A DNA stretch of 64,000 nt from Thermanaerovibrio acidaminovorans DSM 6589 (lineage in GTDB: Bacteria > Synergistota > Synergistia > Synergistales > Synergistaceae): NCBI RefSeq assembly GCF_000024905.1, contig NC_013522.1, positions 1,240,001 to 1,304,000 of the forward strand, written 5' to 3'. The translations under genes and the position numbers were made by a program. Shown in pieces: positions 28,603 to 33,370 of this stretch; within the stretch, counting starts at the first letter, position 1, and each line of letters starts with the position of its first letter. The notes under the pieces were generated by a model that did not search any database, was not told the origin of the DNA, and saw only the letters and a program-made list of their open reading frames with translations.

Positions 28603-28983
28603 CTAGCCCTTGTAGGCTACCACCTCTATCTCCACCAGGGCACCCTTAGGCAGGGCGGCCACGGCCACGCAGGACCTGGCGGGGTACTGATCGGTGAAGT
28701 AGCGGGAGTAGACCTGGTTGACCGCCCCGAAGTTGGCCATGTCGGTGATGAAGACCGTGGTCTTGATGACGTTGCTGAAATCCATCCCCTCAGACTCCAG
28801 GAGGGCCTTCACGTTCTCAAGCACCCGCTCCGCCTGGGAGGCCGCATCGTCCCCCACCATCTCCCCGGTCTTGGGATCCAGGGGGATCTGGCCGGAGAAG
28901 AAGTAGAAGGGACCCGCCGCCACACCCTGGCTGTAGGGTCCTATGGCCCCCGGGGCCTTGTCCGTGTTCACTATCCTCTTCAA
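28603..28983 (-). CDS. ridA: RidA-family reactive imine/enamine deaminase
   Basis: A 126-residue protein with the family text APGAIGPYSQG near the N-terminus, VFITDMANF in the middle and the arginine-bearing PARSCVAVAALPKGALVEIE near the C-terminus. It deaminates 2-aminoacrylate and similar products of PLP enzymes. The start is TTG with GGAGGTG upstream. It sits between an S4-domain gene and rex. Confidence 0.95.
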   Translation of the reverse strand: MKRIVNTDKAPGAIGPYSQGVAAGPFYFFSGQIPLDPKTGEMVGDDAASQAERVLENVKALLESEGMDFSNVIKTTVFITDMANFGAVNQVYSRYFTDQYPARSCVAVAALPKGALVEIEVVAYKG

Positions 28984-29044: not shown

Positions 29045-29314
29045 TCACCAGGGCTCCTCCCTGGAGACCTTCCTGTCCTCCAGAACCTCGAACGCGGCGG
29101 CCTTGCGCTTGATCTCCCCCTCGTCGGCGGTGAGGACCTTCACCCGCAGGAACCGGGACGGGAAGTCCACCTCCAGCTGGTCCCCCGCCCTCACCTCCGT
29201 TGAGGGCTTCGCCACCCGGCCCGATACCCGGACCGCACCCGCCTCCGCCATCTCCTGGGCCACCGTGCGCCGCTTCACTATCCTGGCAAGCTTAAGAAAC
29301 TTGTCCACCCTCAA
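29045..29314 (-). CDS. S4-domain RNA-binding protein, RqcP/Hsp15-like
   Basis: About 89 residues made almost entirely of one S4 RNA-binding domain: RVDKFLKLARIVKRRTVAQE, then VRVSGRVAKPSTEVRAGD. This size and pattern match RqcP (YlmH/YabO-type), which binds the 50S-peptidyl-tRNA complex in ribosome quality control, and the Hsp15 family. The start is TTG 29314 with GGAGGT seven bases upstream; the longer frame from 29335 would put this signal inside the gene. It lies directly downstream of the eRF1-like gene, which strengthens a translation-rescue role. Confidence 0.82.
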   Translation of the reverse strand: MRVDKFLKLARIVKRRTVAQEMAEAGAVRVSGRVAKPSTEVRAGDQLEVDFPSRFLRVKVLTADEGEIKRKAAAFEVLEDRKVSREEPW

Positions 29315-29381
29315 GGCTTGTACCTCCACTAACAATCTGCGTGGAAGTATACCAAAAGGGTGGACCCTTTACAAACCCCGC

Positions 29382-30446
29382 TCACCGGGAGAGCCTAGTC
29401 AGCCCCCCAACCCCCTCATGCTCCCTGAGCGATGACGGGCGTCCCAGCACCAGGACCTCCGCCCCGCTGAGCAGGGCCCTATGGGCCATGGCATCCAGCA
29501 GGTCCGTCTCCTCCTCCATCCCGGAGCCGCAAAGGGGGCACTGGTCCTCGTCCAGCCCCAGGGCCCCGCAGGAGGTGCACCGGACCCCCCTTACGGTCCG
29601 CCGCTCCTCCACCACCAGGCTCATCAGGGCCCTACGGTTCACCTGATCGATGGCCTGCCGGAGCCCCAGGACGGACCGGCCCGGGCTCTCCAGGATCCTC
29701 TCCACCAGGTCCTCCGCCTCCTGAAAGAACCGGGCCCCCATGGCCTCCCTCACGGACCTCTCCAGGTCCTCCTGGGACTTGGGGGCCTTAAGGGAGCGGA
29801 CCGGGAGGCTGAACCGCCCCAGGGCCTCCAGGGCCTCGGGCATTACCTCCTCGGAGCCGGTGACCCACACCTCCCCGGCGGGGCGCTCGGCGTTCAGCTC
29901 CCGGAGGCGCCAGGCCAGGTCCTTCAGGAATTTGGACAGGGACGTCTCCGCCCGCCTCTCCAGCCGGCGCTCCTCGCCCCCCCGAAATCCCGCGTCCCTC
30001 ACCTTGCGGGGGATCTCCTCCGACAGCTCCTCCACCCGCTCCAGCACCGCATGGTGACGGAAGATCTCCCCCCTGCCCCGGTGGATCCACACCACCCAGG
30101 CCTCCAGGAGGGGGCATAGGGCCTCCAGGGCCGGCAGGATCCAGGGCCTCTTGGAGATCACCTGCCCATCCACCGGGGACGGGAGGGGGAGCGCCAGGGA
30201 CCTTCCGGAGGGGGAGGCGAAGAGCCCCACCCCCAGGGGGGACCTCCCCTCGCCGAGGTGCAGGTCCTCCAGGAGCCCCTCCAGGGGACGGGAGGCCCAA
30301 TCCCCCACCTCCTCCGCCAGCTTCTTGGACCGGGTCTTCAGGTGGGCTATCCGCTGCTTCACGTCCCCACCGAGCGGGAGGTACAAGGTGAGCACCCGAT
30401 CCTCACCGCCGAAGGCCTCCAACACCTTCATCGCCCTTCCAGCCAT
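29382..30446 (-). CDS. bacterial eRF1/Pelota-like protein (baeRF/Vms1 type)
   Basis: A 354-residue protein that I read as a three-domain class I release-factor relative. Residues ~1-130 form an eRF1-N-like region. A central domain follows with FRGGEERRLERRAE, matching the place and context of the eRF1 GGQSxxRFxRxxE motif but with GGE in place of GGQ. The C-terminal L7Ae-like domain starts near GLRQAIDQVNRRAL, carries a CxxC...CxxC knuckle (CTSC, CPLC) and ends in GVGGLTRL, like the eRF1 GGIAAIL end. The role is probably rescue or cleavage on stalled ribosomes. The start ATG has GAGGAGGGG upstream. It lies between rpoD and the S4 gene. Confidence 0.75.
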   Translation of the reverse strand: MAGRAMKVLEAFGGEDRVLTLYLPLGGDVKQRIAHLKTRSKKLAEEVGDWASRPLEGLLEDLHLGEGRSPLGVGLFASPSGRSLALPLPSPVDGQVISKRPWILPALEALCPLLEAWVVWIHRGRGEIFRHHAVLERVEELSEEIPRKVRDAGFRGGEERRLERRAETSLSKFLKDLAWRLRELNAERPAGEVWVTGSEEVMPEALEALGRFSLPVRSLKAPKSQEDLERSVREAMGARFFQEAEDLVERILESPGRSVLGLRQAIDQVNRRALMSLVVEERRTVRGVRCTSCGALGLDEDQCPLCGSGMEEETDLLDAMAHRALLSGAEVLVLGRPSSLREHEGVGGLTRLSR

Positions 30447-30501
30447 GGTAACCCCTCCTCTCTTGGGTTCGAGGAGAGCCCGAGACCCCCGGATCCAGCG
30501 G

Positions 30502-31665
30502 CTAGTCCAGGAAGTCCCGGAGCCGCTTGCTCCTGCTGGGGTGTCTCAGCTTCCTCAGGGCCTTGGCCTCTATCTGTCTTATCCTCTCCCGGGTCACGCC
30601 GAACCTGCGCCCCACCTCCTCCAGCGTGTGGGAGTGGCCGTCCTCAAGACCGAACCTGAGGCGCAACACCTCCTTCTCCCGGTCGGTCAGGTCCTCCAGC
30701 ATCTCCTCCAGCTGTTCCCGGAGGATCTGGTTGGCCGCCGCCTCGTCGGGACTGGGGAGGTCCTTGTCCTCCAGGAAGTCCCCCAGCTGACTGTCCTCCT
30801 CCTCCCCTATGGGGGTCTCCAGGGAGACCGGCTCCTGGGCTATCTTCTGGATCTCCTCCACCCGGTCCACCGTGACCCCCATCTCCTGGGCTATCTCCTC
30901 CGCCGATGGCTCCCTCCCCAGCCGCTGGACCAGCACCCGGGAGATCCGGATAAGCTTGTTTATGGTCTCCACCATGTGGACCGGGATCCTTATGGTCCTG
31001 GCCTGGTCGGCTATGGCCCTGGTTATGGCCTGCCTTATCCACCAGGTGGCGTAGGTGCTGAACTTGTAGCCCTTGCGGTAGTCGAACTTCTCCACCGCCC
31101 GGATGAGCCCCAGGTTACCCTCCTGGATCAGGTCCAGGAAGAGCATGCCCCGGCCTATGTACTTCTTGGCTATGCTGACCACCAGCCGCAGGTTGGCCTC
31201 CACCAGCTTCTCCTTGGCCCTCTTGTCCCCCGCCTCGACCCCCTTGGCCAGCTCCACCTCCTCCTCGGGGGACAGGAGGGGTATCCGGCCTATCTCCCGG
31301 AGGTACATCCTGACCGGGTCCGACAGGGGCAGGTCCTCAAGGTCCCCCAGGTCGTCCGCTGGGGATATCTGGGGGAGTACCTCCTCCCCTATGCTATCCC
31401 CCCGCTGGGCCTTCGTCTCGTCCACCACGTCTATGCCCAGCTCCATAAGGTTGTAGTAGAGGTTGTCCAGCACGTCGGCGGACAGGAGCTCCTTGGGGAG
31501 GTGCTTCTCTATGTCATCGTAGGTGACGAACCCCTTCTCCCGGGCGTCGTGGAGCAGGTCCCTCACGTTCTCGATGTAGTCCATCATGTTGTCCGCTGAG
31601 GCCTCCGGGGCTGCCACCTCCCCTTCCACCCTGACGTCCTCTTCCTTCCTGTTGATGTCGTCCAT
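30502..31665 (-). CDS. rpoD: primary sigma factor RpoD (sigma-70)
   Basis: A 387-residue housekeeping sigma factor. A short region 1.1 is followed by region 1.2/2 ([53 protein letters not shown]), region 3 and region 4.2 ([20 protein letters not shown]). It lacks the large insertion of E. coli sigma-70. It follows dnaG by ten bases, as in the classic macromolecular-synthesis operon. Confidence 0.97.
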
Positions 31666-31675
31666 ATGGGACGCC

Positions 31676-33370
31676 CTACCCCCTTCCCTTCATCTTGGCG
31701 GCCAGAGCGAAGAACTCCCTAAGGTCCTCCTGGGTGACCTGGTCCCCCCGGGCTATCTTGACCTTCAAGGCCTCGTAACGTCTCAGGTCACGGTTCCGCT
31801 CCAGGTTCAATAATACCGCACCCAACGGATCATCCAAACCCAGCCCATCTATGAAAGCCCCCCCCTTGGCCAGGACGGAGAGGAAGACCGTCTCCCCGGT
31901 CCTGTGCCATCGGGACTCCAGCTCCTCGGGCCTCTCGCCGCAGAGCAGGGCCAGCACCAAGACCCGGGCCTCCTCCCGCATCAGAAGGGGGAGGAGCGCC
32001 TCAGGAGACTGCCTGGACCTAAGGTCAGGGTTGGTCCATAGCAAGCTACACAGCCCCCACTCCCAGAGGTCCTCCCGGCTGTCCCCCCGGGAGGGGGGCA
32101 CGCTGGCCTCCCGCCTGGCGGGCTCCGCCACCCGGGGCTTACTGCTGCGCCTTCCGGCCACCTCCCGCTCCACCTCGTGGGGCAGCAGGGAGAGGGCCTC
32201 CGCCACCCGGGGCATGTGCCGCTTAAGGTACGCGGGGGAGAGGGTGGCCAACTGGTCAAGCAGGTCCCCAGTCTCCTTCAGGGACCCTCCCCCCCCCTTA
32301 ACCTCCGCGTGGAACACCGGCAGCGGCAGGGTGGATTCCAGGGCCCGCCGGAAGTCCGATGCCCCATCGGGCTGGGAGAGCAACTCGTCCGGGTCCTTCC
32401 CCCGGGGGAGGCGGACCACCTCCACGTCAACCCCCAGGCGGTTCAGCATGTACATGCCCCTTATGGTGGCCTCCTGTCCTGCCAGGTCCGAGTCGAAGCA
32501 GATCAGGCACCGATCCGCGTGCCGGGCTATGACCCCGCACTGCTCCTCCGTAAGGGATGTCCCGAGGCAGGCCACCGCCTCGCTGAAGCCCGTAAGGTGA
32601 CACCTTATGGCGTCCATGTAGCCCTCCACCAGGATCACCCGGCCCCTCTCCCTTATGGCGTGCTTCGCCATGTTAAGAAGATATAGGAACTTGCGCTTCT
32701 CGAAAAGGGGTCCCTCGGGGCTGTTGACGTACTTGGCCCCCTCCCCGTCCACCAGCCGGCCCCCGAAACCCACCAGCCGGCCGGTCTCGTTCCTCAGGGG
32801 GAAGATGACCCTACCCCGGAACCGGTCGTAGGGCCCCTTGGAGCCCTCCACCAGAAGCCCCACCTCCAGCATCTCCTCCCTGGAGAACCCAAGGGAGGAC
32901 AAGTGATCCCGAAGGGCCCCCCAGGAGGCGGGGGCCCAGCCTATCTCGAAGAGCTCCAGGGCCCGTCGGTCCAGGCGCCGGCGCTCCAGGTAGGCCGCCG
33001 CGTAGGCCCCCTCCCGGGAGGCAAGGGCGTCCCGGAAGAACCGTAGTGCCTCCTCCAGCACGTCCCGGGACCTGCGCCTCCCGGGACCGGAGTCCAGCTG
33101 GACCCCCGCCATGGGGGCCAGCTTCTCCAGCGCCTCCCGGAAGGGCAGGTTCTCCATCTCCATGACGAAGGAGAAAATGTCCCCCCCCTTGCCGCAGCCA
33201 AAGCAATGGTAGGTCTGCCTCTCCCGGGAGACGGTGAACGACGGGGTGCGCTCCGAGTGGAAGGGGCACAGGGCCACGTAGCTCCTGCCCCTCTTCCTCA
33301 AGGGGATGTAAGAGGACACCAGGTCCACTATATCTATCCGCTCCTTTATGGCGCGAACTGGATCGTCCAG
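31676..33370 (-). CDS. dnaG: DNA primase DnaG (probable CTG start)
   Basis: Makes RNA primers for replication. The CHC2 zinc finger (CPFH...CFGCG), TOPRIM motifs ([11 protein letters not shown] and [10 protein letters not shown]) and a C-terminal helicase-interaction region are present. The conserved [11 protein letters not shown] helix extends upstream of the first GTG (33328). The frame closes at a TGA a few codons further up, and the only start that fits is CTG at 33370, with GGAGGT seven bases before it (564 residues). Using GTG 33328 would cut off the conserved N-terminal helix. It precedes rpoD. Confidence 0.93.

Follow-up and report, generated by a model that had tools for sequence, protein, structure and literature searches.

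A Balon-like baeRF protein with a predicted zinc ribbon, encoded behind rpoD in Synergistota, is a probable ribosome hibernation factor

The 354-aa protein encoded directly behind rpoD in the window (the whole stretch of 64,000 nucleotides analysed here, positions 1,240,001-1,304,000 of a Synergistota genome consisting of a single contig of 1.85 Mb) is, judged by its sequence and its predicted fold, a baeRF of the Balon type, and among the possible readings that of a hibernation factor like Balon has the best support; we consider it probable. Most likely it is a non-hydrolytic, Balon-like occupier of the ribosomal A site, which is made with the rpoD operon and has kept an archaeal-type zinc ribbon. 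The features observed are the fold, the order of the domains, the family, the lack of a glutamine of the GGQ or GGxSQ type, the invariant arginines at the start of the post-loop helix, the cysteines of the ribbon and the position in the dnaG-rpoD block. The initial annotation had described an eRF1/Pelota relative, with GGE as the equivalent of GGQ, next to an RqcP-like gene, and suggested that the two may be a rescue module; the family, the layout and the RqcP identity stand, the equivalence of the motifs does not, and the module is not supported.

Results

Gene and locus

The following features are discussed here.

31676-33328, minus strand: dnaG, preceding rpoD
30502..31665, minus strand: rpoD, upstream neighbour of the baeRF gene
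30452..30459, minus strand: Shine-Dalgarno sequence of the baeRF gene, AGGAGGGG, strong, read from the sequence
29382..30446, minus strand: baeRF family 10 / Balon-like gene, 354-aa open reading frame with ATG start
Residues ~1-112, ~113-239 and ~240-354 of its product: N domain, central RNase H-fold domain and C-terminal L7Ae/eRF1_3-like domain, from profile matches and the predicted structure
29955..29993, minus strand: loop that faces the peptidyl transferase centre (PTC) in homologues, and helix start, codons 152-164, AGFRGGEERRLER, from alignments
29529..29579, minus strand: zinc-ribbon-like insert of the C-terminal domain, C290-x2-C293 ... C303-x2-C306, with invariant Cys
29346..29374, minus strand: own sigma-70-type promoter-like site of rqcP, TTGTAA-17-TATACT with extended -10 TG, from the sequence pattern
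29045..29314, minus strand: rqcP, encoding an S4 protein of 89 aa when read from the likely start at TTG, open reading frame extensible to 29335

Read along the minus strand, the genes are, in order, hppA, dnaG, rpoD, the 354-aa baeRF gene, rqcP, ridA, rex, yajC, secD and secF, some of these names being given by domain scan and the remainder by recognisable sequence. The end of rpoD is separated from the start of the baeRF gene by 55 bp, and since a promoter search of this gap revealed no promoter-like site, the baeRF gene is probably read together with rpoD. The distance from the baeRF gene to the S4 open reading frame as called (29045-29335) is 46 bp. A RidA-family gene (28603-28983) lies between rqcP and rex; an enolase-like gene occupies the corresponding spot in the four relatives checked (L026, L027, L029 and L030), and in L034 enolase is found two genes past the baeRF relative.

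Family and fold of the 354-aa protein

Taken alone, the window protein matches Pfam baeRF_family10 (PF18854) at 8e-5 with 23.4 bits, the cut-off being 27.1, and at 1.1e-6 the Rv2629 family of ribosome hibernation factors in NCBIfam. The PF18854 cut-off is surpassed by 13 of the 16 Synergistota orthologues; all 14 close relatives match baeRF_family10 (best 1.8e-16), eleven of them match eRF1_3, and scores for PF18854 reach 6e-32 in relatives from other phyla. According to NCBIfam the 14 orthologues match the Rv2629 hibernation family (14/14), the MSMEG_1130 family (13/14, best 7.8e-24), aRF1_eRF1 (10/14, 1.2e-10) and pelota (1/14). Because the window protein reaches 28 bits against an equivalog cut-off of 320, its sequence makes it a relative of the named Rv2629 subfamily and not a member.

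A profile of the 14 Synergistota orthologues, run with hmmsearch against solved (PDB) structures, found Balon MSMEG_1130 first (7.5e-24) and Rv2629 second (1.3e-7), with archaeal aRF1 at 2.7e-6 and 1.1e-4 and P. urativorans Balon at 1.7e-4. The AlphaFold model of the protein (mean pLDDT 86.8, pTM 0.80) matches Balon and aRF1/eRF1 from end to end, at Z of 27.7-20.8 for six Balon entries and of at most 13.5 for aRF1, eRF1 and Pelota (13.5 for aRF1, about 12 for Pelota). Sequence and predicted structure together confirm the three-domain layout of the eRF1/Pelota superfamily.

With Balon, MSMEG_1130 and Rv2629 the window protein shares the whole-length profile match, the three-domain fold, the missing GGQ and an LKN/LRN-type motif in the N domain; it differs from them in its score under the equivalog cut-off, in its conserved GxxGxEE loop and in the place of its gene beside rpoD, not raiA. 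With aRF1/eRF1 it has in common the domain order, the R-R-x-E-R that starts the post-loop helix and, for aRF1, the C-terminal zinc ribbon, but its translation contains neither GGQ nor NIKS, and it is more distant from them in fold and in sequence.

A single-sequence phmmer search of the PDB matched only the zinc ribbons of sirtuins, where the profile search gave Balon and aRF1 instead, and single-protein scans of genome contigs and viral contigs returned no relatives, which a profile scan did find. One match within the phylum (L017) was set aside as a sirtuin-like sequence, and nothing similar turned up in the phage records searched.

The superfamily also offers a non-catalytic rescue of the Pelota/Dom34 kind, in which the protein would enter stalled ribosomes and lead to splitting or drop-off rather than to storage. 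Burroughs and Aravind named it as an option for baeRFs (PMC6514570), and the common superfamily, the missing Gln and the fold match to Pelota agree with it; nevertheless, Pelota is clearly farther than Balon both in sequence and in fold, and we regard this role as unlikely.

The loop at the peptidyl transferase centre

Residues G153, G156, E158, E159, R161 and R164 are invariant in 14 relatives, so that the orthologues follow the pattern G-x-x-G-x-E-E-x-R-x-x-R, in the variants AG[FY][RQ]GGEERR[LI]ER (four), GGR[YQ]GMEERRIER (three) and AGWYGLEE[RT]RI[EK]R (seven). The loop varies less than any other part of the protein: six residues between 150 and 164 are invariant (Fisher p 0.0013), and its length is fixed.

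The GGE, which had been placed in the position of GGQ, is found in just 4 of the 14 orthologues, G157 being replaced by Met or Leu in the other ten. In three alignments (one HMMER, two MAFFT) the GGQ of aRF1 falls over A152-G153-F154, and in one MAFFT alignment the GGW of GGWSQ from a bacterial relative (L122) falls there as well; residues 155-157 (RGG) form a three-residue insertion, E158-E159 lie over S-Q, and thereby E159 over the Q of GGxSQ. As GGQ is aligned elsewhere and 155-157 are inserted, GGE, which overlaps the insertion, is not a GGQ with one substitution. The loop of the window protein contains no Q and therefore no catalytic Gln of the GGQ or GGxSQ type, and none of the 14 relatives has a Q at the residue that aligns with this Gln; one of them (L004 and L007) has Q at the variable residue 155.

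The Gln is described as well conserved in baeRF family 10 (Burroughs and Aravind 2019, PMC6514570), whereas the subgroup of the window, with its 14 matches in 14 close relatives, is without it; the Q-bearing L122 is family 10 at 1.4e-23. The agreement of L032-L044 at GxEE is a matter of selection, since most of them were retrieved by a pattern containing GxEE, and the profile-retrieved set L114-L124 varies at the loop (GLAE, GYGED, none, SQ).

Balon has no GGQ and no NIKS, it occupies the decoding centre and the PTC, and its loop curls around A2602 without cleaving the peptide (PMC10901736). A conserved loop of fixed length was linked by Burroughs and Aravind with catalytically active families (PMC6514570). 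One could imagine that the rebuilt G-x-x-G-x-E-E loop, with Glu where the VLRF1-type Gln would be, has a particular task in the PTC, for instance a slow hydrolysis of peptidyl-tRNA or holding of the P-site tRNA end on 70S/50S, and is not a passive plug; we give this idea a low probability.

Zinc ribbon

C290, C293, C303 and C306 are invariant in all 14 orthologues and mostly kept in distant relatives. In aeRF1 proteins a zinc ribbon is often part of the Pelota domain, and in many baeRFs its site is taken by an insert of two strands (PMC6514570); MSMEG_1130 has a Cys-free segment aligned with the four-Cys insert of the window protein. In Balon, EF-Tu-GDP is touched by a beta-loop of the C-terminal domain (PMC10901736), and the predicted zinc ribbon, which falls in the alignment on the segment of this beta-loop, may be its counterpart in this role.

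The downstream gene and the proposed rescue module

The closest PDB chain to the S4 protein is B. subtilis YabO/RqcP (1.2e-14). RqcP proteins are recognised by Arg2, Asp4, K14-R15-R16 and a span of no more than 110 aa between Arg2 and the C terminus (PMC11317155), and the S4 protein has R9, D11, K21-R22-R23 and 87 residues to its end; by these marks the gene is rqcP, as had been proposed. Its start is probably TTG 29314 (89 aa), not 29335, with GGAGG upstream of this TTG at 29323-29327. The rqcP reading frame (107 aa) is the only short-ORF match to the S4 domain in the genome, which also contains an NFACT/RqcH-like gene; the RqcH-RqcP pair without YlmH is reported for 84% of Synergistota (PMC11317155). 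In the 60 bp before rqcP, a -10-like TATA[AC]T is present at 32 of 35 Synergistota loci (16/16 with the baeRF gene and 16/19 without; 5% in shuffles), and the extended -10 is seen in close relatives.

The initial annotation suggested that the two genes may form a rescue module that releases nascent chains; in this reading the baeRF would free them from 50S/70S ribosomes on which RqcP is active, a Glu replacing the Gln. The strongly conserved loop, the RqcH of the genome and the alignment of E159 with the Q of GGxSQ in the bacterial relative speak for it, as does the adjacency itself, which holds in 16 of 16 close Synergistota relatives, inside a conserved block. However, all 116 good Synergistota genomes (116 of 116) encode RqcP and 13 of them have the baeRF gene, and at least 48 genomes of the phylum that have no baeRF gene carry rqcP directly behind rpoD (a hand count from the rows listed); 19 of these loci, fetched and re-aligned, have rpoD-rqcP gaps of 7-205 bp with no baeRF. 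In this phylum rqcP is a separate neighbour of rpoD, with or without a baeRF gene. Four divergent Synergistota matches (G008, G009, G179 and G185) lie away from rqcP/rpoD where the latter two could be located on listed contigs, and for relatives in other phyla neither rqcP nor rpoD was detectable in flanks of up to 6 kb. Since rqcP follows rpoD also where there is no baeRF gene, carries in both cases mostly a promoter-like site of its own and is not seen near relatives from other phyla, the best explanation of the adjacency is that the two genes share the place behind rpoD. The chemistry does not favour release either, the loop having no Gln and the closest folds and relatives being Balons, non-hydrolysing hibernation factors not known to cleave peptidyl-tRNA. 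The pair is thus probably not a dedicated rescue module, and such a function seems to us quite improbable; what the initial annotation had staked its proposal on, an eRF1 fold and the S4 adjacency in close relatives, is nonetheless there, the latter for the reason of position.

The presence of the baeRF gene is patchy, and it is missing from most genera of the phylum. On an RpoD tree it requires 5 presence/absence changes (3-5 in bootstrap), and a single origin is compatible with this tree.

Discussion

If the protein is a Balon-like hibernation factor, it would enter 70S ribosomes that are idle or have stalled, at their A site. Its N domain would occupy the decoding centre with no need for a stop codon, the G-x-x-G-x-E-E-x-R-x-x-R loop would come to lie next to A2602 and the end of the P-site tRNA and leave the peptide unhydrolysed, and the C-terminal domain would contact EF-Tu-GDP and the factor-binding site via the predicted zinc ribbon. 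Ribosomes would be protected and silenced in this way in stress or growth arrest, and RqcP would do its work apart from this protein, together with RqcH on 50S subunits after splitting.

Some relatives have neighbours that fit such a function. One (L032) follows hsp20-dnaK-grpE-clpB, and another is carried by an Azospirillum plasmid, where its gene overlaps with the end of one that encodes a sigma factor and where DnaJ, CbpM, a universal stress protein and DegQ are encoded close by; these stress-gene neighbourhoods match those published for Balon. A third (L033) precedes a protein with a weak match to sigma-70 region 2, and the others (L034-L044) are found among metabolic genes. In L119, L120 and L121 the matched range of the whole-genome search contains one in-frame stop, yet long open frames are present there too.

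HPF/RaiA co-binds with Balon (PMC10901736). No RaiA/HPF gene was found beside the baeRF gene at the locus; the same genome encodes an HPF/RaiA-domain protein in a 203-aa open frame (G000:C1:777533-777796), far from it, and its presence speaks for the hibernation reading. The missing neighbour counts against the hibernation reading, as do the housekeeping neighbours of the gene (dnaG, rpoD and secDF, not stress genes), the low equivalog score and the highly conserved loop of fixed length, and binding to the ribosome is itself a prediction. That the gene is a degenerate relic of little function in the rpoD operon, as its patchy presence might suggest, is very unlikely in view of its intact reading frame, its good ribosome-binding site, its confident predicted fold and 34 residues invariant among relatives just 30-56% identical.

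Our analysis shows that the association of baeRF with RqcP, inviting as it looks, is misleading. Family 10 includes Gln-bearing as well as Gln-less (GxEE) members, so membership in it is no predictor of peptide release. For the Synergistota, the analysis places a Balon-like factor bearing a predicted zinc ribbon in the dnaG-rpoD block of several lineages of the phylum.
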